A DNA stretch of 64,000 bases. Origin: Deltaproteobacteria bacterium. GTDB lineage: Bacteria > Myxococcota_A > UBA796 > JAFGLY01. The notes under the pieces were generated by a model that saw only the letters and a program-made list of their open reading frames with translations, searched no databases and had not been told where the DNA came from. Positions 28,728-49,243 of this stretch are shown here, piece by piece. A program made the position numbers and the translations under genes. The stretch covers positions 1 through 64,000 of the forward strand of contig JAFGLY010000114.1 in the NCBI GenBank assembly GCA_016927815.1, given 5' to 3'. Every line of letters begins with the position of its first letter. The stretch's first letter is position 1.

Positions 28728-28864
28728 GCGGCAGCGCCGGGCCGCGTCCGTGCCCGCGTCCGTGCGGTGGACGATTCCTGCCGGTCGCGTTCCCCGAAGC
28801 GTGGAGCGGGGATCCTGTGTATCCGCGCGCCGTCCTGGGGCGTACGAGGGTAGAGGAGAGCGCC

Positions 28865-29473
28865 ATGCTCCCACCGATGCATGCCGACGCGGCGGATCCC
28901 GGAGCCCTCCCCGACCTGCAGCGAAGGTTCGCGGACGGGGACACCGAGGCGTTCGGTGCGCTCGTCGGCCCGCACCTCGACCTGCTCTACACCGTCTGCC
29001 TGCGCATGATGGGCAGTCCTGCGGAGGCTGAGGACGTGGCGCAGGAGGCCCTGTGCCGCGCCCTGGACCGGTGCCGATCCTACGATCCCGCGCGACCGTT
29101 CCGGCCCTGGCTGCTCACGATCGCGCTCAACGAGTGCCGCAGCCGCCTGCGCTCGACCTGGTGGCGCCGGGTCCTCGGCCTCGACGCCCGGCAGGAGGAG
29201 CCCGCGGGCGAGGGGCGGGGTGCCGAGGGCCGCGACCTGGATCGCAAGGTGCGCGCCGCGCTCGCGACCCTGCCCCCCCTGTACCGGGAGGCGGTCGCGC
29301 TCTTTCACCTCGACGACCTCTCGTACGAGGAGATGGCCACGGCGAGCGAGGCCAGCGTGCCCGCACTCAAGCAGCGGGTGCGCCGGGGCCTCGTGCTGCT
29401 CGAGGAGGCAGTGGCCCGCCTGTATCCGGACCTCCTCGAGATGCGTACCGTGAGCAGGAGGTACGAACCATGA
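28865..29473 (+). CDS. ECF-type RNA polymerase sigma factor
   Basis: A 202-residue sigma-70 family regulator with region 2 (RMMGSPAEAEDVAQEALCRALDRC, then RPWLLTIALNECRSRLR) and region 4 (LPPLYREAVALFHLDDLSYEEMATA, then ALKQRVRRGLVLLEE). Regions 1.1, 3 and an extra C-terminal domain are missing, as in ECF factors. ATG at 28865 is preferred to the GTG 48 bp upstream because GAGGAG stands 7 bp ahead of it. The gene overlaps the next by ATGA and leads a four-gene unit. There is no zinc-finger anti-sigma gene; the membrane CBM48 protein two genes downstream is the best candidate. Confidence 0.9.
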   Translation: MLPPMHADAADPGALPDLQRRFADGDTEAFGALVGPHLDLLYTVCLRMMGSPAEAEDVAQEALCRALDRCRSYDPARPFRPWLLTIALNECRSRLRSTWWRRVLGLDARQEEPAGEGRGAEGRDLDRKVRAALATLPPLYREAVALFHLDDLSYEEMATASEASVPALKQRVRRGLVLLEEAVARLYPDLLEMRTVSRRYEP

Positions 29474-30141
29474 ACCGCATTCCCTGGATCGTCGTCGTGC
29501 TGGCCGCTGGCCTCTCCACCGAGGCCCTGGCCGGCGAACCCCTGCCCGCCCGCGTGCAGGAAACCGTCCGTCAGGCCGAGGCCGCCGGGCTGCCGGCCGG
29601 GCCGTTCGAGGCCAAGGCCCAGGAGGGTCTCGCCAAGGGCGTGCCCGAGGATCGCGTCGAAGCCCTGCTCCTGCAGATGCGGGAGCGGATGCGCGAGGCC
29701 GACCGGGCCCTGGGCGAACTCGCCCGCGGCTCGGACCGCGCCGAGCTGCTCCAGGCCGCCACCCGAGCCCGCACCGCAGGAGCCAGCGGCGAGGGCCTCG
29801 CCGAGGCGGCCCGGCACACGCACCGCGTGGCTGCGATGTGGTGCCTGGGCGATCTCTTGGGGGCAGGCGTCGGAGAGCGCGAGGCTCTCCGTCTCGTGAC
29901 CCAGGCCTCCCAGGAAGGAGACCCGGCCGGAAGGTACCGGGAGATGGTGGCGGCCATGCAGCGGATGCAGGGCCTGGGCATGGGTCCGGCCGCGGCCGCC
30001 CACCAGATGTCCCAGACCATGGCCCGCGGCCAGCCGCCGCTCGCGGCGGTGCCCGAGCAGGCGGGCGGCCCTGCGCGCTCCGGCGGGGACGCCGACCACG
30101 GCGCCGGCCAGGGTGGCGGGTCCGAGGGCCAGGGGAACTAG
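29470..30141 (+). CDS. exported Ala/Glu-rich helical protein in ECF operon
   Basis: A 223-residue protein with signal peptide MNRIPWIVVVLAAGLSTEALA and a mature part made of amphipathic helices rich in Ala, Arg and Glu, closing in a Gly/Gln-rich tail. I do not recognise a domain. Repeated modules (RVQETVRQAEAAGLPAG, RVEALLLQMRERMREAD, AEAARHTHRVAAM) suggest a helical-bundle periplasmic protein. ATG overlaps the sigma factor stop by four bases, so it is made in step with it. A role as a regulator or cargo of the sigma pathway is inference from position. Confidence 0.75.
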   Translation: MNRIPWIVVVLAAGLSTEALAGEPLPARVQETVRQAEAAGLPAGPFEAKAQEGLAKGVPEDRVEALLLQMRERMREADRALGELARGSDRAELLQAATRARTAGASGEGLAEAARHTHRVAAMWCLGDLLGAGVGEREALRLVTQASQEGDPAGRYREMVAAMQRMQGLGMGPAAAAHQMSQTMARGQPPLAAVPEQAGGPARSGGDADHGAGQGGGSEGQGN

Positions 30142-30150
30142 GAGGTCGTC

Positions 30151-30630
30151 GTGAAGGAGGACCGGACCGGCATCGGAAGCGCACTCGACGTGCACACCGC
30201 GCCCCAGGGCCTGCTCACGCGGGCCCTGGCCCGGCACCGGCGCTCGCCGGCCGCCGGGCGGTGGACGTGGCTCCTCGCCGCCGCGACACTGGCGGTCGGC
30301 TTCGTGGTCGGCCGCTGGTCGGTCCCTCCGCCGGAGCCGACGGCCGTGGCGGAACGCGCTCCCGCGGCCGGGGTGGTCCCGGTCCGGCTGGTCTGCGTCC
30401 AGCAGGGTGCGACCCAAGCGGCGGTCGCAGGATCGTGGAACGACTGGAACCCCGGCGCCACCCCCATGGTCCGGGTCGCCGACGACGTCTTCGCCACGAC
30501 CGTGCTCCTGGAGCGCGGTCGCCACGAGTACATGTTCGTGGTGGACGGCCACACCTGGACCCCCGACCTCGCGGCCGCCACCTGGGTCGACGACGGGTTC
30601 GGCCACCGTAACGCCGTGATCGAGCTGTGA
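30151..30630 (+). CDS. single-pass membrane protein with CBM48-like glycan-binding domain
   Basis: A 159-residue protein. Residues 1-38 are cytoplasmic and basic, 39-58 one hydrophobic helix (TWLLAAATLAVGFVVGRWSV), and about 75-159 an outside beta-sandwich of the CBM48/AMPK glycogen-binding type: VCVQQGATQAAVAGSWNDWN, then VRVADDVFATTVLLERG and HEYMFVVDGHTW, with the aromatic residues of the binding face. The plan is cytoplasmic stub, helix, extracytoplasmic sensor, as in anti-sigma factors, but no HxxxCxxC zinc motif is seen. Start GTG with GGAGG 5 bp ahead. Confidence 0.82.
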   Translation: MKEDRTGIGSALDVHTAPQGLLTRALARHRRSPAAGRWTWLLAAATLAVGFVVGRWSVPPPEPTAVAERAPAAGVVPVRLVCVQQGATQAAVAGSWNDWNPGATPMVRVADDVFATTVLLERGRHEYMFVVDGHTWTPDLAAATWVDDGFGHRNAVIEL

Positions 30631-30643
30631 TGCGGACGGCGCG

Positions 30644-31732
30644 GTGATCGCCCTCCTGCTGGCCGCGGCCGCCTGGCCTGCCGCGCTCGACGCGGGCGGC
30701 GGCCACCTCGCGCTCCTGGGCGGCGTGGACGCCTGGAGCGGGACCGCCGGTCCTGTTGTCGAGGCCCGGATGGGCGGATGGGCGGCCGCCGGGCTCGCAG
30801 GATCCGTGCTCTCGGCAGGCCTGTGGGGCTCGGTGGAGGCGCTGCCGGGCCGGGAGCTCGCCTGGCTGGATGCCTGGACGGGCGAGGTCCGGGTGCGGGG
30901 ATCCAGAGGGCTCGAGCCCGGCGTGGGCCTGCTCGCACGAGGCGGCCTGCTCATGGACCCTGCCTGGGGCGAGGGGGCCCTGGTCGCCTCGGCGCGGGTC
31001 GGGCACGGGGCCGCGTGGATCGAGGGAGCGCTCGGCCCCCTCGTGCGCGGCGAGGCCGAGGTCACCACCGCGGGCGGCCTGGGGAGCCTGGCGGCCGTCG
31101 CGTCGGCAGGGCGGCTGCGGGTGACCGCCCTGGGCACCGCCCGTGCGTTCGCCGACCCGGGGTTCCCCCCCTGGTCTCTGGAGGCCGACCTCCAGGTCGC
31201 GGCCGGGAGCCGCGCCCTCGCGTGGGGGACGGCCGGCGTCGCACAAAGCGCCAAGGCCGAGGTCCTCGACCCCGTGGCGGGCCTCCCGGCACCGGACACC
31301 ACCGTGCTCCGGGCCGGGCTCGGTGGCACGGTCCCGCTTGGGCGCGCCCTGTCGCTCTCCCTCGAGGCGGGGATCGAGACCGGCCTGGGCGACGCCCCCT
31401 ACCTCAGGGAACGCGCCCTTATGGGGCTCGCGGGCCGGTTCGGCGGCGCACGTGCCCACCGGGAGGCTGCCCAGCCGTCCACAGGCGTGCGGTTCACGCT
31501 CGACGCGCCGCGGGCGCACGCCGTCGCGGTGGCGGGCACCTTCTCCGGCTGGGCGCCCCTGCCCCTGGCGCGCGGCCCGGACGGCACCTGGGTGCTCGTC
31601 GTCCCCCTGCCGCCCGGCGAGTACGAGTACTGCTGGCTCGTGGACGGCAAGGCCCGTAGCCCCGTGGAGGCCGCCCGTCGCCGTCCCGACGGGTTCGGCG
31701 GCGAGAACGGGATCGTGGTCGTCGTGCCCTAG
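30644..31732 (+). CDS. exported beta-rich protein with C-terminal CBM48-like domain
   Basis: A 362-residue protein. The first 15 residues are a signal (MIALLLAAAAWPAALDAG). Residues 20-275 are Gly/Ala-rich alternating segments that read like an outer-membrane barrel or repeat (HLALLGGVDAW, GLLARGGLLMDP, EAEVTTAGGLGSLAAV). The C-terminal 75 residues repeat the CBM48-like fold of the previous gene (FTLDAPRAHAVAVAGTFSGW, then PPGEYEYCWLVDG). GTG start. It is the last gene of the ECF operon. The most economical reading is a surface glycan-binding protein under sigma control. Confidence 0.75.
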   Translation: MIALLLAAAAWPAALDAGGGHLALLGGVDAWSGTAGPVVEARMGGWAAAGLAGSVLSAGLWGSVEALPGRELAWLDAWTGEVRVRGSRGLEPGVGLLARGGLLMDPAWGEGALVASARVGHGAAWIEGALGPLVRGEAEVTTAGGLGSLAAVASAGRLRVTALGTARAFADPGFPPWSLEADLQVAAGSRALAWGTAGVAQSAKAEVLDPVAGLPAPDTTVLRAGLGGTVPLGRALSLSLEAGIETGLGDAPYLRERALMGLAGRFGGARAHREAAQPSTGVRFTLDAPRAHAVAVAGTFSGWAPLPLARGPDGTWVLVVPLPPGEYEYCWLVDGKARSPVEAARRRPDGFGGENGIVVVVP

Positions 31733-31908: not shown

Positions 31909-34900
31909 ATGCTCCTGTCGCTCTTTTTCCTCCTTCTCGGCATGATCCCGCTCCCGCATGCTCCCATCCGGAGCGGACCGCCTGCCGCTCACCTCGACCG
32001 CAGGCCCGCGGTGCAGTGGGCGCTCTCCACCCGCCCGGCGTGGCAGGACTTCCAGGACGCCTGGGGCGGCGCCTGGGGCGTTCGCTGGGACGAGCGCAAC
32101 GGAACCCCCCGCTTCCTGTACGTGCCGGGCGTGCCCCTCTCCCAGGCCGACGCGCTCCTCGAGGACGTGGCCCGGCTCGCGGGCACGGACCCCGCCGGGT
32201 TCGAACTGGCCTCGGAGGTCCGGCGAGGCCAGCAGGTGCTCCGGCGCTGGACGCGCACCTGGCAGGGGGCCGAGGTGGTGGGCGACCAGGTGCTCATGGT
32301 GGCCAAGGAGGGGCGGATCGGCGGCGTGTGGGTGCAGGTCACGCCCATCGCGCCCTGCGACCCGATCCGCCCCGGCGAGGTGGTGCTGCCCGTACCACGC
32401 TTTCCCGCGGGGAGAGAGTGGATCGCCCCGTCCAACGGGGTCCGGGGCGTTCCGGGCTGGGTGGAGCGCGACGGGACCACGGTCACGTGGCGCGATCGCG
32501 AGGGACAGGCCCTGCTCTGCTACGACGAGCGGATGACCGGTGCGATCACGGTCACGCACGAGGTGCGCACCCAGGGTGGCGCGATCGTGGAGGATCCGGC
32601 CCGCGAGGTCACCGTAGTCGACACCCTCGGCACCTCCGACATCACGGACGTCGACGGGCACCACGACCTCGAGGGCGGCGTCACCGTGACCCTCGAGGGC
32701 CCGAGCCTGTGGGTGCTGCAGGACGGGTCCGGGGTCCGGGTGAGCGGGAGCGCGGATCTCGTGCTCGACGCCGGCACGGACCTCTCCTACGCCGCAGCCG
32801 ACGTGCTCCACAACTTCCACGTGGTCTGGGACTGGCTCGCGGATCGCTGGCCCACCCATGCGTGGCTCGACGACCAGGTCCCGGCCAACGTGGGCTTCGG
32901 TTGCGGCCACTGCAACGCCTGGTACACCTCGGGCACCCTGACCTTCCTCCCGCCCCACCCCGATGCCTGCAACGACTTCGGACGGATCGCCGACGTGCTC
33001 TACCACGAGGTGGGGCACGGCATCCACGAGTACATCCTGGCTGGAGGCACGCGGGCGGGCGACGTCTCGGAGGGGGCCGCCGACTTCGTGTCCTGCACGA
33101 TCAACGACGACCCCCAGGTGGCGCCCAACGCCTACGTCGACGGGGGCTACCTGCGGGAGATCGCCAGCGACCGGGTCTACCCCGACGACGTGACCGGCGA
33201 GCCCCACAACGACGGCCTCATCTTCAGTTCCTTCCTCTGGGATCTCCGGGAGGCCTGGATCGATGCCTACGGGGTGGACGGGGGTGTCGAGCGGGCCGAC
33301 GTCCTCTTCCTGGGGACCTTGGAGCAGGGCCCCACCCTGACCGACGTCGCCGAGGCCGTGCTGGTGGCGGACGACGACAACGGGGACCTGTCCGACGGTA
33401 CGCCCCACGCCTGCGCCCTCTTGGACCTGCTCGACGCGCACGGGCTGGGGCCGGGGCCCCTCGGCCTCCTGGTGTTCGACCACGATCCGCTGGAGGATCA
33501 GCCATCGGACGCGCTCCACTACGAGGTCCGATTCTCGCTCACCGACGTCAGCGGCGACTGCGAGGGACGCGGTCCGCCCGGGGTCCGGCTCTGGTACACC
33601 CTCTCGGACGCCGAGGTGCCCGACGTGGACGGTGGCAAGGGCTCCGACGCCTGGGAGGAGGTCTCCCTCCTGGAGGAGAAGGAGGGTGGCTGGATCGGCG
33701 TCATCCCGAGACAGCCCGCCAATACGCGGGTCCGGTACACCATGGAGGCCGTCTCCACGGACGGATCGCAGGCGATCGCCACCCACGAGGGACGCGACGA
33801 GGGGGCCTGGACCTTCTGGGTGGGCGACCAGGAGCGGCTGTGGTGCGAGGGGTTCGAGGCGGGCGCCCCGGGCTTCTCCCACGGCCCGGGAACCCCTGCA
33901 CGCCCGGACACCGCCGGGACCTGTACGGACGAGTGGTCCTACGGCACGCCCGACGGCGCGGGGCCGTTCGACCCGGACCGTCCGTGGGAGGGCGCCACGG
34001 TCGCGGCTACGTCCCTGAACGCCAACTACAGCGCCCTCAACCGCCAGTACCTGAAGTCGCCCACCCTGGACCTCACGGGTGCGGGGCCCATGCTGCTGCT
34101 GTCCTTCCGGCGGTGGCTCACCGTGGAGGACGCTCTCTACGATCACGCCTACCTCTGGGCCGGCGACACCCTGCTCTACGAGAACCCCTCCTCGGCCGAC
34201 GGCAGCCAGCACGTGCTCGACATGGGCTGGACGCTCCGGGACGTCCCCATCGAGGGCGCACTCGACAGCGAGGGCCGCATCGCCTTCGCGTGGACCCTCC
34301 TCTCGGACTCGGGCCTGGAGTTCGGAGGGTGGGCGCTCGACGACGTCTGCGTGGTGGCCCTCGCCGACGTGCCGGGCCACTACCGGGTACGCGACCTCGT
34401 GGCCACCGATGAGGCCGAGGTGGTCTCGATCACCTGGACCCAGCCCTGGGTGGCCCCGCTCTCCCGCACCCTCCTCTTGCGCAAGCAGGCGGGCTGGCCC
34501 GAGGGCCCGGGGGACGGCGAGGTGCTCGATGACGACACCGCGCCCCTGTTCGGCGCGTCCCGGCGGGTGTCGGACCCGGACGTGGCGCCCGGGGAGCGCT
34601 GGTACTACGCGGTGTTCACCGCCGACGGCGACGGCACGTTCCACCTCGCCGTGGTGGAGGGCGAGAACGCGGACGAGGGCGGGCGTCCTTCGCCGGAGGG
34701 GGACACCTCGGAGGGAATCCCCGACACCGGGACCCCGACGACCGACGACACGGGTGCGCCTCGGACCGACGACACCGCCGGAGCGGATCCCCCGAACTGG
34801 AGCGGCACCCCGGGACCCCATCCGGTCGGCGACACGGGTGCGCCTCGGGCCGACGACACCGCCGAGCCCGAGGACCGAGGTCCCGGGTGTGGGTGCGGGT

Positions 34901-35028
34901 CCGGACCCACGCGTGGGGGATGGACCGCCTTGCTCCTGGCGCTGGTCCTGCTGGGGCGGCGCCGGAGCGCTGGGGAGAACCCGCGGGCCCCCGACCCGAC
35001 GGTCTTCGTCCGCGATGTGGGCGCATAG
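31909..35028 (+). CDS. secreted zinc metalloprotease with MYXO-CTERM-like tail
   Basis: A 1039-residue exported protein. A signal segment of about 20 residues is followed by a prodomain-like region (VPGVPLSQADALLEDVARLAG, EVVGDQVLMVAKEGRIGG). The catalytic part has HEVGH at residues 366-370 and the third ligand Glu 388 in SEGAADF, the gluzincin layout of M36/M4-like peptidases. A beta-rich region follows (about 700-860, CEGFEAGAPGFSHGPGTPAR), then an Asp/Thr/Gly linker with a doubled PRTDDTAG unit, then GCGCGSGPTRGG, a hydrophobic helix and GRRRS. About 20 residues follow the Arg cluster. ATG at 31909 gives a signal peptide; upstream in-frame starts do not. Confidence 0.82.
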   Translation: MLLSLFFLLLGMIPLPHAPIRSGPPAAHLDRRPAVQWALSTRPAWQDFQDAWGGAWGVRWDERNGTPRFLYVPGVPLSQADALLEDVARLAGTDPAGFELASEVRRGQQVLRRWTRTWQGAEVVGDQVLMVAKEGRIGGVWVQVTPIAPCDPIRPGEVVLPVPRFPAGREWIAPSNGVRGVPGWVERDGTTVTWRDREGQALLCYDERMTGAITVTHEVRTQGGAIVEDPAREVTVVDTLGTSDITDVDGHHDLEGGVTVTLEGPSLWVLQDGSGVRVSGSADLVLDAGTDLSYAAADVLHNFHVVWDWLADRWPTHAWLDDQVPANVGFGCGHCNAWYTSGTLTFLPPHPDACNDFGRIADVLYHEVGHGIHEYILAGGTRAGDVSEGAADFVSCTINDDPQVAPNAYVDGGYLREIASDRVYPDDVTGEPHNDGLIFSSFLWDLREAWIDAYGVDGGVERADVLFLGTLEQGPTLTDVAEAVLVADDDNGDLSDGTPHACALLDLLDAHGLGPGPLGLLVFDHDPLEDQPSDALHYEVRFSLTDVSGDCEGRGPPGVRLWYTLSDAEVPDVDGGKGSDAWEEVSLLEEKEGGWIGVIPRQPANTRVRYTMEAVSTDGSQAIATHEGRDEGAWTFWVGDQERLWCEGFEAGAPGFSHGPGTPARPDTAGTCTDEWSYGTPDGAGPFDPDRPWEGATVAATSLNANYSALNRQYLKSPTLDLTGAGPMLLLSFRRWLTVEDALYDHAYLWAGDTLLYENPSSADGSQHVLDMGWTLRDVPIEGALDSEGRIAFAWTLLSDSGLEFGGWALDDVCVVALADVPGHYRVRDLVATDEAEVVSITWTQPWVAPLSRTLLLRKQAGWPEGPGDGEVLDDDTAPLFGASRRVSDPDVAPGERWYYAVFTADGDGTFHLAVVEGENADEGGRPSPEGDTSEGIPDTGTPTTDDTGAPRTDDTAGADPPNWSGTPGPHPVGDTGAPRADDTAEPEDRGPGCGCGSGPTRGGWTALLLALVLLGRRRSAGENPRAPDPTVFVRDVGA
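34747..34864 (+). repeat. 34-bp direct repeat, 84-bp period, in the protease linker
   Basis: Copies at 34747-34780 and 34831-34864 differ at one base and encode DTGAPRTDDTA and DTGAPRADDTA. A small in-frame duplication of the Asp/Thr linker just before the sorting tail. Confidence 0.85.
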
Positions 35029-44982: not shown

Positions 44983-46950
44983 ATGACGCGGAGGCTTCCG
45001 GGAAGACGGGGCGACCACGGCCCACGCCGTGCGTCGACCCGCACGAGGGCGACGAGGACGAGAGGCCTCCTGACGAGCCTCGCCCGGGGGTTCGACATCG
45101 GCGTGGCCGGGAAGTGGCTGATCCTGGGATCGCTCGTCGGTGTGGTGGCAGGTCTGGGCGCCATCGCCTTCCAGGCCCTGTTGCAGATCGCGTCGGGTGC
45201 GCTCCTGGAGAACCTGGCCGGCCTGGGCCTGGGCCGACCGGGGGGCGAACCGCCCGTCGTCGCCTTCACGACCGGCCCCTTCCGGCCCTGGCTCGTGGTG
45301 CTGCTGCCCGCCCTGGGCGGCCTGGTCTCCGGCCTGATCGTCCGCTGGTTCGCCCCGGAGGCGGGCGGCCACGGAACGGATGCCGCCATCCGGGCCTACC
45401 ACCACGAGCTCGGCCGCATCCACTGGCGGGTTCCGCTCGTGAAGCTCGTGGCGTCGGTCCTCACGCTGGGCAGCGGCGGATCCGGAGGCCGGGAGGGTCC
45501 CATCGCGCAGATCGGGGCCGGCTTCGGGAGCTTCGTGGCGACTCGCCTCGGGTTGAGCACCCGGACCCGGCGCTGGCTGCTCGCGGCAGGCATCGGTGCG
45601 GGCGTGGGCAGCATCTTCCGTGCCCCCCTGGCAGGCGCCGTGTTTGCCGCAGAGGTGCTCTACGCCTCCACGGAGGTGGAGACCGAGGTCCTCCTCCCTG
45701 CGACCGTGGCCTCCATCGTGGCGTACTCGGTCTTCGCCGCCCGCTTCGGGTGGGGGCACATGTTCACGGGTGTGGGCGACTACGACTTCTCGCGCCCCAT
45801 CGAACTCGTGCCCTACCTCGTCTTGGCGTTGATCGTTGCCGCCGCCGCCTGGGTCTTCGTCCGCACCTTCTACGGGGTGCGCAACCGGGTGGCTCGGCTG
45901 CGTCTGGCGCAACCCCTCAAGACCACGCTCGGGGGTCTCGCCACCGGCCTGGTGGCCCTCGGGCTCTACTACGCCATGGGCCGCGATGCGGGCGTGTTCG
46001 ACGTGCTGTCGGCCGGCTACGGCATCGTCCAGGAAACCCTGGAGAGCGACGGCACCTCGGTGGGCCTCGCCCTCCTGCTGGTCGTGGCGGCGGGCAAGAT
46101 CGTGACCACGACCTTCTCCATCGGGTCCGGGGGAAGCGCGGGCGTCTTCGGGCCCTCCATGGTCATCGGCGCCACCCTCGGCGCTGCGGTCGGGAAGGTC
46201 TTCCACGGGATCGCGCCCGACATGGTGCCGCACGTCGCGCCCTTCGCGATCGTCGGAATGGCGGGCTTTTTCGCTGCGGCGGCCAATACGCCCATCTCCA
46301 CGGTCATCATGGTGAGCGAACTGACCGGCAACTACAAGCTGCTCGTGCCCGCGATGTGGGTGTGCGCGCTCGCCTTCCTCGCGGGTGGACGCTGGAGCAT
46401 CTTCCACAACCAGGTCCAGAGCCGGGTGGCCTCGCCCGTCCACTTCGGCGAGCAGGCCCGCCACATGTTCAGCACGACGACCGTCGGGGAGATCGTGAAG
46501 AAGGACCGTCGATTCGCCCTCCTGACACCGAGCATGACGCTGGGCGAAGCCCTCGCCGCCACGGGTGGGACCCGCCAGCGGCTCTTCCCCGTGGTAGAAG
46601 GGTCCCGCTTGGTGGGAACCTTCCACCAGGACGATCTGCTGGGTGCGCTCCAGGATTCCCGACCGGGCGCCGCTCCGCTCCGGGTGTCGGACCTCGTCGC
46701 CCCCAGACCGCCGATCGTACGGTTCCACGACAGCGTGTCCGTGGCCCAGCGCCTGCTCCGGACCCATCACGTGGACGAGATCCTCGTGGTGGACGCCCAC
46801 AGAACGCCGGTCGGGATCCTCACGAACGCCGACATCCTCCTCGCGTTCACGCGCACGCTCTCCCAGCGGCAGGCCACCGAGGGGGAGGTCTTCCCGGACA
46901 CGGGCACCGAGACGGAGGACACGCGAGACGGCGCGGAGCCCCGGACGTGA
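44983..46950 (+). CDS. ClC family chloride channel/transporter with CBS domains
   Basis: A 655-residue ClC protein. After a basic N-terminus come about ten helices. [11 protein letters not shown] holds the gating-Glu stretch and [11 protein letters not shown] the second selectivity stretch; [17 protein letters not shown] is also characteristic. Residues from about 500 on form a pair of CBS-like domains ([15 protein letters not shown] ... [26 protein letters not shown]), usual nucleotide sensors. ATG is favoured by hydropathy, but no ribosome site is visible and an upstream in-frame ATG at 44839 is possible. It overlaps otsB in GTGA, tying ion flux to trehalose synthesis. Confidence 0.9.
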
Positions 46951-47756
46951 CGCACCTGCCCGCCCCGCCGGATCCGGACGCCCTGGATCCGTTCTTCGCC
47001 CGCCTGTCTCAGGCGCTGTGCGCACTGCTCCTCCTGGACTACGACGGCACGCTTGCGCCCTTTCGCCTGGACCGCACCCGGGCCACGCCCTGGCCCGGCG
47101 TCCGCGAGGCCCTGGCTGCGATCCAGGCGACCGGCCGGACCCGCCTGGTCCTGGTGTCCGGCCGGCCGGTGGGAGAGGTCGCGGATCTCCTAGGCCTGGA
47201 CCCCGCTCCCGAGATCTGGGGCGTCCACGGGCTCGAGCGCCGCACCCCGGACGGCAGGGTCCGGAGGGAGCCCCTGCCGCCTCGCGCCGAGGTGGGGCTC
47301 GAACAGGCGGCGGCATGGGCGGCCTCCATGGGGCTCGGGCCTCGGACCGAGCGCAAGCACGGGGCCCTCGCGATCCACCTTCGCGGAATGTCGGACGCCG
47401 ACGCCCTCCGTTTCTCCCGTGCCGCCCGAGCCGCCCTTGCGCCCATCGCCGACCGCCACGGTCTCGCGGTCCTGTCGTTCGTCGCCGGGGTCGAACTGCG
47501 TGTGCCCTCTGCCAGGAAGGCCCGGGCCGTGACCACGTTGCTCTCGGAGATGCCCGACGATACGGTCGTCGCCTGCCTCGGTGACGACGCGACCGACGAG
47601 GACGCGTTCGAGGCGCTCCACGGGCGGGGCGAGACGTTTCTGGTGCGTGTCTCTCCGCGTCCCAGCCATGCGCGATGGCTGCTCCCTCCTCCCGAGGGGG
47701 TCCTCGCGTTCCTCGCCCGCTGGGCCGCCTCGCGGCCCTCACGGAAGGCTCCATGA
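46947..47756 (+). CDS. otsB: trehalose-6-phosphate phosphatase
   Basis: A 269-residue HAD-superfamily phosphatase that removes phosphate from trehalose 6-phosphate. HAD motif I is LLLDYDGTLAPF, motif II LVSGRP, motif III with Lys in ERKHGALAIHLRG, and motif IV GDDATDEDAF. The GTG start overlaps the ClC stop and the stop overlaps otsA in ATGA. Together with the ClC gene the order suggests an osmotic-stress unit. Substrate is inferred from family and the otsA partner. Confidence 0.92.
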   Translation: MTHLPAPPDPDALDPFFARLSQALCALLLLDYDGTLAPFRLDRTRATPWPGVREALAAIQATGRTRLVLVSGRPVGEVADLLGLDPAPEIWGVHGLERRTPDGRVRREPLPPRAEVGLEQAAAWAASMGLGPRTERKHGALAIHLRGMSDADALRFSRAARAALAPIADRHGLAVLSFVAGVELRVPSARKARAVTTLLSEMPDDTVVACLGDDATDEDAFEALHGRGETFLVRVSPRPSHARWLLPPPEGVLAFLARWAASRPSRKAP

Positions 47757-49243
47757 GTACCGCGCACCGCCTCGTCCTCGTTTCGAACCGCCTCCCGATC
47801 GTGATCGAGAAGCGGGAGCACCAGTGGCAGGTGAGCCCCGCGGCCGGAGGACTGGTCACGGCGCTCGCCCCCATGCTCACCCAACGGGGGGGGCTGTGGA
47901 TCGGGTGGCCCGGCGTGGAGGCAGAGCCCGGGGTCGACTGGGCGTCGCTGCTCGTCGAGGGGGGCAGGGCGGCCGGGTACGAACTGCTCCCGGTCTGGAT
48001 TTCTCCCACCGACCTGGACGGCTTCTACCTCGGCTTCACCAACTCCCTCTTGTGGCCCCTCTTCCACACCATGCCCGAACGGTGCCAGTTCGATCCCGAG
48101 GCCTGGAGCACCTACCGGCGGGTGAACGACCAGTTCGCAGAGGCCGTGGCCTCACAGGTGCGCCCTGGGGACTTCGTCTGGATCCAGGACTACCACCTCA
48201 TCCACGTCGGGGAGCGGCTCCGCGAGTTGGTACCGGGCGTCCGGGTCTCGTTCTTCCTCCACATTCCCTTTCCGCCCCTCGACCTGTTCCTCAAGGTTCC
48301 CTGGCGCATGGATCTCCTGCGCGCCCTGCTCGCCTACGATCTGGTGGGCTTCCAGACCCAGAGGGACATGCGCCACTTCCTCTTCGGGTTGAACCGCATC
48401 CACCCGGGTCTCCAGACCTCGGGCCGGGGATCTCTCGTCCAGGTCCACATCGAGGGGCGTTCCCTGCGCGTCGGAGCCTTCCCCATCGGGATCGACTACC
48501 GGGACTACCGCTCCAAGGCGCAGTCGAGCAGGATCCGCTCCTTGCGGGACCATCTGGCTGCCTCGGTCGACCATCGCCAGGTCGTCCTGGGCGTGGATCG
48601 CCTCGACTACACCAAGGGGGTCCCAGAGAAGCTGCTCGCCTACGAGTCTCTCCTGGAGCGGTACCCCGAGCACCGCGAGAAGGTCGTGCTCCTCCAGGTG
48701 CTGGTCCCCAGCCGGGCAGGGGTGTCGCACTACCAGGCGCTCAAGGATCGCATCGATCGTCTGGTGGGTGCTGTCAACGGCCGCTTCGGAACGACTGGCT
48801 GGACGCCCGTCCGGTACCTGTACCGAGCCGTCTCTCGCGAGGAGCTGGTGGCGCTCTACCGCCTTGCCCAGGTCTGCTTCGTCAACCCCCTGAAGGACGG
48901 GATGAACCTCGTCGCCAAGGAGTACTGCGCGTGCCAGGTCGACCGGGCGCGGGGCGTACTCGTCCTGAGCGAGTTCGCGGGCGCCTCGGGCCAGCTCCAG
49001 CGGGGTGCGCTGCTCGTCAACCCCTACGACACCGAGAGCGTGGGCGACGCCCTCCACGAGGCGCTCACCATGCCTCCCGAGGCGCGCAGGGCCCGCATGG
49101 CCCGCCTCCAGGAGGTAATCCGCCGCCAGGACGTCTTCTGGTGGGCCGAGGAGGTGCTGAGGGCTTCGGGCACGGCCGAGCCCCCGGACGTCCCCGCGAG
49201 GGAGGAGTACATGCCTCGGTTCAGTATGGAAATAGACGATTAA
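47753..49243 (+). CDS. otsA: trehalose-6-phosphate synthase
   Basis: A 496-residue GT20 glycosyltransferase joining UDP-glucose (or similar) with glucose 6-phosphate. Family landmarks are VSNRLP, AGGLVTAL, WIGWPG, QDYHL, FLHIPFP, VDRLDYTKGVPEKLLA with the donor-binding Arg/Lys, and PLKDGMNLVAKEY, ending in FAGASGQLQRGALLVNPYD. It overlaps otsB. An unusually AT-rich 3' end leads into a terminator-like hairpin. No regulator is encoded beside the operon. Confidence 0.96.
   Translation: MSTAHRLVLVSNRLPIVIEKREHQWQVSPAAGGLVTALAPMLTQRGGLWIGWPGVEAEPGVDWASLLVEGGRAAGYELLPVWISPTDLDGFYLGFTNSLLWPLFHTMPERCQFDPEAWSTYRRVNDQFAEAVASQVRPGDFVWIQDYHLIHVGERLRELVPGVRVSFFLHIPFPPLDLFLKVPWRMDLLRALLAYDLVGFQTQRDMRHFLFGLNRIHPGLQTSGRGSLVQVHIEGRSLRVGAFPIGIDYRDYRSKAQSSRIRSLRDHLAASVDHRQVVLGVDRLDYTKGVPEKLLAYESLLERYPEHREKVVLLQVLVPSRAGVSHYQALKDRIDRLVGAVNGRFGTTGWTPVRYLYRAVSREELVALYRLAQVCFVNPLKDGMNLVAKEYCACQVDRARGVLVLSEFAGASGQLQRGALLVNPYDTESVGDALHEALTMPPEARRARMARLQEVIRRQDVFWWAEEVLRASGTAEPPDVPAREEYMPRFSMEIDD

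Follow-up and report, generated by a model that had tools for sequence, protein, structure and literature searches.

Which protein restrains the sigma factor encoded at 28865-31732 of the window (the whole 64,000-nt stretch of DNA that was analysed), and what signal would release it? Reading of the window places four genes here in the order SIG-HEL-MEM-BET, on the + strand, as are all features given below. SIG (28865-29473) encodes an ECF sigma factor, HEL (29470-30141) an exported all-helical protein conserved beside SIG and MEM, MEM (30151-30630) a putative reduced anti-sigma factor (stub, one transmembrane helix and a CBM48 domain predicted to be periplasmic), and BET (30644-31732) a predicted outer-membrane barrel that ends in a second such domain. 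SIG has two possible starts (ATG 28865 or 28877), the start of HEL overlaps the end of SIG in ATGA, and GTG is the start codon of both MEM (30151) and BET (30644). An earlier sequence-only reading had described four genes with two CBM48-type domains, and both the gene positions and the domains hold, with Pfam scores above cut-off.

Conservation and genetic context

The same reading had proposed a search for the four proteins together in Myxococcota genomes, and the set proved syntenic in 10 related genomes, usually in the order SIG-HEL-MEM-BET (HEL-SIG-MEM-BET in L041; contig ends truncate loci L039 and L040). A PF16561 search among 113 relatives gave pairs of short frames ~1 kb apart. Mean column identity across related loci is highest for SIG (61%), followed by MEM (51%), HEL (46%) and BET (41%). 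Within the phylum, 20 of 379 genomes contain HEL; SIG and CBM48 genes adjoin it at strong matches with sufficiently long flanks. Scanning GTDB genomes with MEM alone as seed yielded 80 loci, with SIG in 72, HEL in 73 and both in 71, the remainder lying at contig ends or consisting of isolated CBM proteins that lack a transmembrane helix (L153, L156-L158, L160).

Set-bearing loci come from about nine phyla (assigned by record titles) and include Myxococcota, Gemmatimonadota, Nitrospirota, Acidobacteriota, Eisenbacteria, Atribacterota, Rokubacteria, Rhodothermota (Salinivenus) and a Syntrophobacterium. Salinivenus lutea, a cultured bacterium, has all four genes (SIG, MEM, BET and HEL). Across the set-bearing loci the genes are arranged differently (SIG-MEM-HEL, SIG-MEM-CBM-HEL, SIG-MEM-BET-HEL, SIG-HEL-MEM-BET and HEL-SIG-MEM-BET), yet membership of the set is retained, and this points to a working unit.

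Several neighbouring genes were also recorded. Directly downstream of the operon, at 31909-35028 of the window, lies a gene for a large, secreted protein that weakly resembles M36/M4 metalloproteases and has a weak MYXO-CTERM-type tail; it was not seen adjoining the operon in relatives. DUF4382 secreted proteins adjoin the operon at three loci in two phyla (L115:2829-3935 and L113:6646-7221, strong matches; L076:448-1149, weak match), and could possibly be targets or partners of the operon. Several Myxococcota carry, beside another sigma gene, a ParA/MinD-type ATPase that ends in an AMPK1_CBM domain (L045:2779-3867; also L044, L046, L048 and L051); these loci were taken as a different system and not counted with the SIG/MEM set.

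The sigma factor and its promoter

SIG matches Sigma70_r2 (69 bits) and r4_2 (44 bits) above the Pfam cut-offs and TIGR02937 at 76.2 bits (cut-off 42.9), and in alignment has the ECF layout of regions 2 and 4, with no regions 1 and 3 and no extension. Upstream of SIG, Nitrospira loci carry TGTTTAC-N15 to 17-CGTCTA and some Gemmatimonadota loci TGTGACG-N16-CGTCTA, or close variants of these. Per genome there are 0-3 copies of the strict Nitrospira pattern, and in several genomes one of them is the operon's own site; the Gemmatimonadota pattern gave one match each in three of seven genomes. Since ECF-type promoters are conserved upstream of SIG in these other phyla, the arrangement suits activation by SIG of its own operon. 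By analogy, TGTGTAT-N18-CGTACGA (28816-28847) is a tentative ECF-type promoter in the window, not significant taken alone.

Two further candidates were rejected. The frequency in the window of TACGNGGGTAGAG, found before SIG and before the downstream protease gene, is not above chance. A second Nitrospira promoter match falls inside the end of an ABC-transporter gene, and therefore no regulon is claimed.

CBM48 domains and their possible ligand

The CBM48/AMPK1_CBM domains of MEM (30382-30627; 41.5 bits) and BET (31481-31729; 31.5 bits) both exceed the Pfam cut-off of 26.8 bits. Further comparison agrees with this family assignment, in fold too: the MEM domain matches AMPK beta with E 5e-12, and the BET tail superposes on the AMPK beta1 glycogen-binding domain (1z0m) with a TM-score of 0.87 (target) and rmsd 1.5 in Foldseek.

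In AMPK, W100, W133 and N150 are required for binding of glycogen/carbohydrate (PMC4032982, PMC2642990). Their equivalents in MEM are W99, W136 and N154, and all 58 MEM domains aligned have W/W/N at these positions, at a mean column identity of 29%. Invariance of these ligand residues suggests that the MEM domain binds a glycan, and the earlier proposal of glycan sensing is plausible on the same ground. The position of AMPK K126 is Met or Gln in 57 of the 58, so ligand preference may differ from that of AMPK. In BET domains the first Trp is present in 22 of 22, the Asn in 12 of 22 and the second Trp hardly ever; residue counts place the window's BET among those without it.

Which glycan would be bound is a separate matter. 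No GH13 (alpha-amylase family) enzyme was found in the window's genome (97% complete), unlike 13 of 14 control genomes, and the domains of MEM and BET are its only PF16561 matches, with no other CBM48 found; there is therefore no usual alpha-glucan metabolism pointing to the ligand. One GT5 glycogen-synthase-type match is present. The alpha-glucan named in the sequence-only reading was thus a guess, and a glycan from outside or from the envelope is as likely a ligand as glycogen. Elsewhere in the window, an otsB/otsA-like trehalose pair is apparent from sequence at 46947-49243.

The predicted envelope components BET and HEL

The AF2 model of BET consists of a 14-strand barrel, a low-confidence linker (residues 269-279) and the CBM48 domain. 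The predicted strands span residues 17-267 (30692-31444), and the best Foldseek match of this part is an E. coli porin (2x9k, E 1.1e-6), with OmpG (2wvp) also matching (E 5.8e-6). An even number of modelled strands and a signal peptide are as expected of an outer-membrane beta-barrel. The C-terminus of such a barrel faces the periplasm. Since BET is predicted to be a barrel with a C-terminal domain, and MEM to span the inner membrane by one helix, the periplasm is the expected location of both CBM48 domains, so that the model replaces the surface use of CBM48 suggested earlier with a location inside the envelope. BET is absent from one Gemmatimonadota group, and L075 has separate genes for the barrel and for a CBM lipoprotein. 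A gene for a Phenol_MetA_deg-type outer-membrane barrel immediately precedes SIG in Nitrospira and Acidobacteria loci (L086, L087, L090-L094, L096, L097, L105, L111).

HEL has an N-terminal signal peptide and is predicted by AF2 to be all-helical (pLDDT 88), with about ten helices packed in a bundle and a tail of poor model quality. It belongs to no Pfam family, giving scattered weak matches only, and Foldseek returned no PDB fold match with E <= 0.001. A conserved core, P-x6-K-x2-EG-x-AK (P42, K49, E52, G53, A55, K56), is a candidate contact site. Because HEL is present in nearly every complete locus, we infer that it is the third core component of the set and a periplasmic partner of MEM.

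These components allow a second interpretation of the sensory side, in which the sigma/anti-sigma switch is the same and the CBM48 domains, having no glycan ligand, act as protein-protein modules through which MEM contacts BET and HEL and signals the state of the outer membrane or periplasm. Loss of the second Trp and often the Asn from the BET domain, the recurrence of outer-membrane barrels next to the operon and a genome lacking GH13 would all fit such modules. Plain scaffolding, however, does not demand W/W/N in every MEM domain at such low overall identity, and we regard this interpretation as possible, if rather doubtful.

MEM as a probable reduced class I anti-sigma factor

The cytoplasmic stub of the window's MEM is ~37 residues long, vs the four-helix domain of at least 50 residues that defines class I anti-sigma factors (ASDI). 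An in-frame TAG stop of HEL lies just ahead of the MEM GTG, in the frame shared by the two genes, making a longer N-terminus impossible; the short stub is thus not the product of a wrong start. The stub contains no Cys, and the H-x3-C-x2-C motif of zinc anti-sigma factors (ZAS) is absent, as the sequence-only reading had noted. It is followed by a single transmembrane helix (approximately 30262-30312), placed from sequence, a hydropathy scan of homologues and basic residues on the stub side.

Most MEM relatives have about 60-100 residues ahead of this helix, with a D-G-E-L type pattern. The NCBIfam anti-sigma model NF052375 matches 43 of 58 MEM members (best E 1.6e-13), although the sole score seen, 35.4 bits in L086, lies under the cut-off of 100. 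zf-HC2 matches five of the 58 (best E 1.7e-10). The zinc form of the anti-sigma domain is present in Atribacterota homologues, where MEM matches RsiW (PDB 5wuq, E 7.5e-6); the match covers most of the domain and takes in its last helix. In alignments, the window's stub corresponds to that last helix alone, with helices 1-3 missing, and these alignments, together with residue counts, place an H-x-AP-x2-LL-x2-AL segment (30193-30243) against helix 4. All 11 reduced members retain this motif, with A17 and L21 invariant.

The ten rows with short stubs group together on the sigma tree (SH-aLRT 99). Their nearest neighbour outside the group, weakly supported, is L113, whose N-terminus is longer and whose genes stand in the same order as in the window. 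Reduction by loss from a class I anti-sigma factor is therefore the simplest reading of MEM in the window's clade. In a Rokubacterium (L119:3880-5121), sigma factor, short linker, transmembrane helix and CBM48 are encoded in one open frame with no stop, a fusion that could be an assembly error in this MAG. Comparison with its relatives shows MEM to be an anti-sigma factor by descent. Given the anti-sigma domains of homologues, the aligned last helix and the SIG-MEM fusion, it is very probably an anti-sigma factor in reduced form, and conservation of the set together also favours the role first proposed for it. The earlier description 'no classical anti-sigma' applies to the window's reduced clade and fails for most relatives, in which a class I domain is recognisable.

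In class I pairs the last anti-sigma helix contacts sigma2 and should block binding of RNA polymerase (PMC7406223), and by homology the stub helix of MEM should bind region 2 of SIG. Loss of helices 1-3 and the overlap of HEL with the sigma gene could be taken to mean that SIG is controlled mainly by its level of transcription or by HEL, MEM being an accessory glycan-binding anchor whose stub is inactive in this clade. Retention of the stub motif in every reduced member speaks against an inactive stub, and HEL carries a signal peptide and so is not expected to meet SIG in the cytoplasm; this explanation is improbable. Control of SIG by an unlinked zinc anti-sigma factor is more improbable still, as related loci have no further anti-sigma gene within the operon and relatives of MEM themselves have the zinc form.

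Comparison with known systems

MEM, read as a reduced class I anti-sigma factor, was compared with characterised regulators. Class I anti-sigma factors (RseA, RsiW, ChrR) share their domain and last helix with full-length relatives of MEM, whereas the window's MEM lacks helices 1-3 and has a CBM48 domain predicted to be periplasmic. CnrY, a class II anti-sigma factor, is a very short cytoplasmic helical sigma binder (PMC7406223), and the cytoplasmic part of the window's MEM is likewise very short and helical. CnrY, however, clasps its sigma factor with two helices and the stub has one evident helix, apparently derived from class I by loss; a single helix may bind sigma weakly. The MEM domain resembles the glycogen-binding domain of AMPK beta in fold and W/W/N ligand residues, and differs from it in the replacement of Lys126, the predicted periplasmic location and the link to a sigma factor.

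RsgI/SigI of cellulolytic clostridia is an operon of a sigma factor and a membrane anti-sigma factor with an extracytoplasmic carbohydrate-sensing module (PMC6056542), a layout probably shared by the present set. Unlike SIG, which has region 4, SigI is not an ECF factor and has no sigma4 domain; cellulosomal clostridia have no outer membrane, and neither HEL nor a barrel is found there. FoxA/FoxR/FoxI combines a barrel in the outer membrane that has a periplasmic signalling domain, an inner-membrane anti-sigma factor with a periplasmic domain and an ECF sigma factor (PMC11637429), and to that extent TonB cell-surface signalling parallels the predicted arrangement here. In contrast to the N-terminal signalling domain of TonB receptors, BET is modelled as a 14-strand barrel with a C-terminal CBM48 domain, it has no Pfam match to a TonB receptor or its signalling domain, and the set includes the extra protein HEL. 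The set would work like RsgI or TonB cell-surface signalling yet lacks defining features of both. In ECF52 SCO4117 of Streptomyces, an ECF sigma factor is joined to a membrane and carbohydrate-binding extension (PMC8999054); by description the L119 fusion resembles this layout, whereas sigma factor and MEM are usually two separate proteins in the present set.

Proposed mechanism and significance

Overall, the locus is probably an ECF sigma/anti-sigma operon for envelope sensing, with MEM a reduced class I anti-sigma factor bearing a periplasmic glycan-binding CBM48 domain. The last-helix segment of MEM would bind region 2 of SIG and prevent SIG from associating with RNA polymerase, while the CBM48 domain of MEM would bind glycan in the periplasm. 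The CBM48-like domain of BET and HEL would probably work with the MEM domain, by analogy with the TonB transducer domain and FoxR/FecR-type anti-sigma factors. A change in glycan occupancy would alter or destabilise MEM and free SIG, which would then transcribe at least its own operon. The K126 replacement, the lack of GH13 and the Gemmatimonadota group missing BET count against this explanation.

No published account was found of a CBM48/glycogen-binding domain with an anti-sigma factor, although large ECF reclassification tables may hold a name for the group. There is about an even chance that these loci represent a widespread undescribed system of about nine phyla, comprising a periplasmic AMPK-beta-like glycan sensor, an anti-sigma factor reduced to a single helix in one clade, HEL and a barrel. 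If so, the glycogen-sensor fold of AMPK would be tied to trans-envelope control of transcription in bacteria, and many proteins that bear only a carbohydrate-domain name would gain a function. The reduced clade would show how small a portion of an anti-sigma domain suffices for holding a sigma factor. HEL would be a new protein family with a place in a signalling system, in phyla from which few regulators have been studied.
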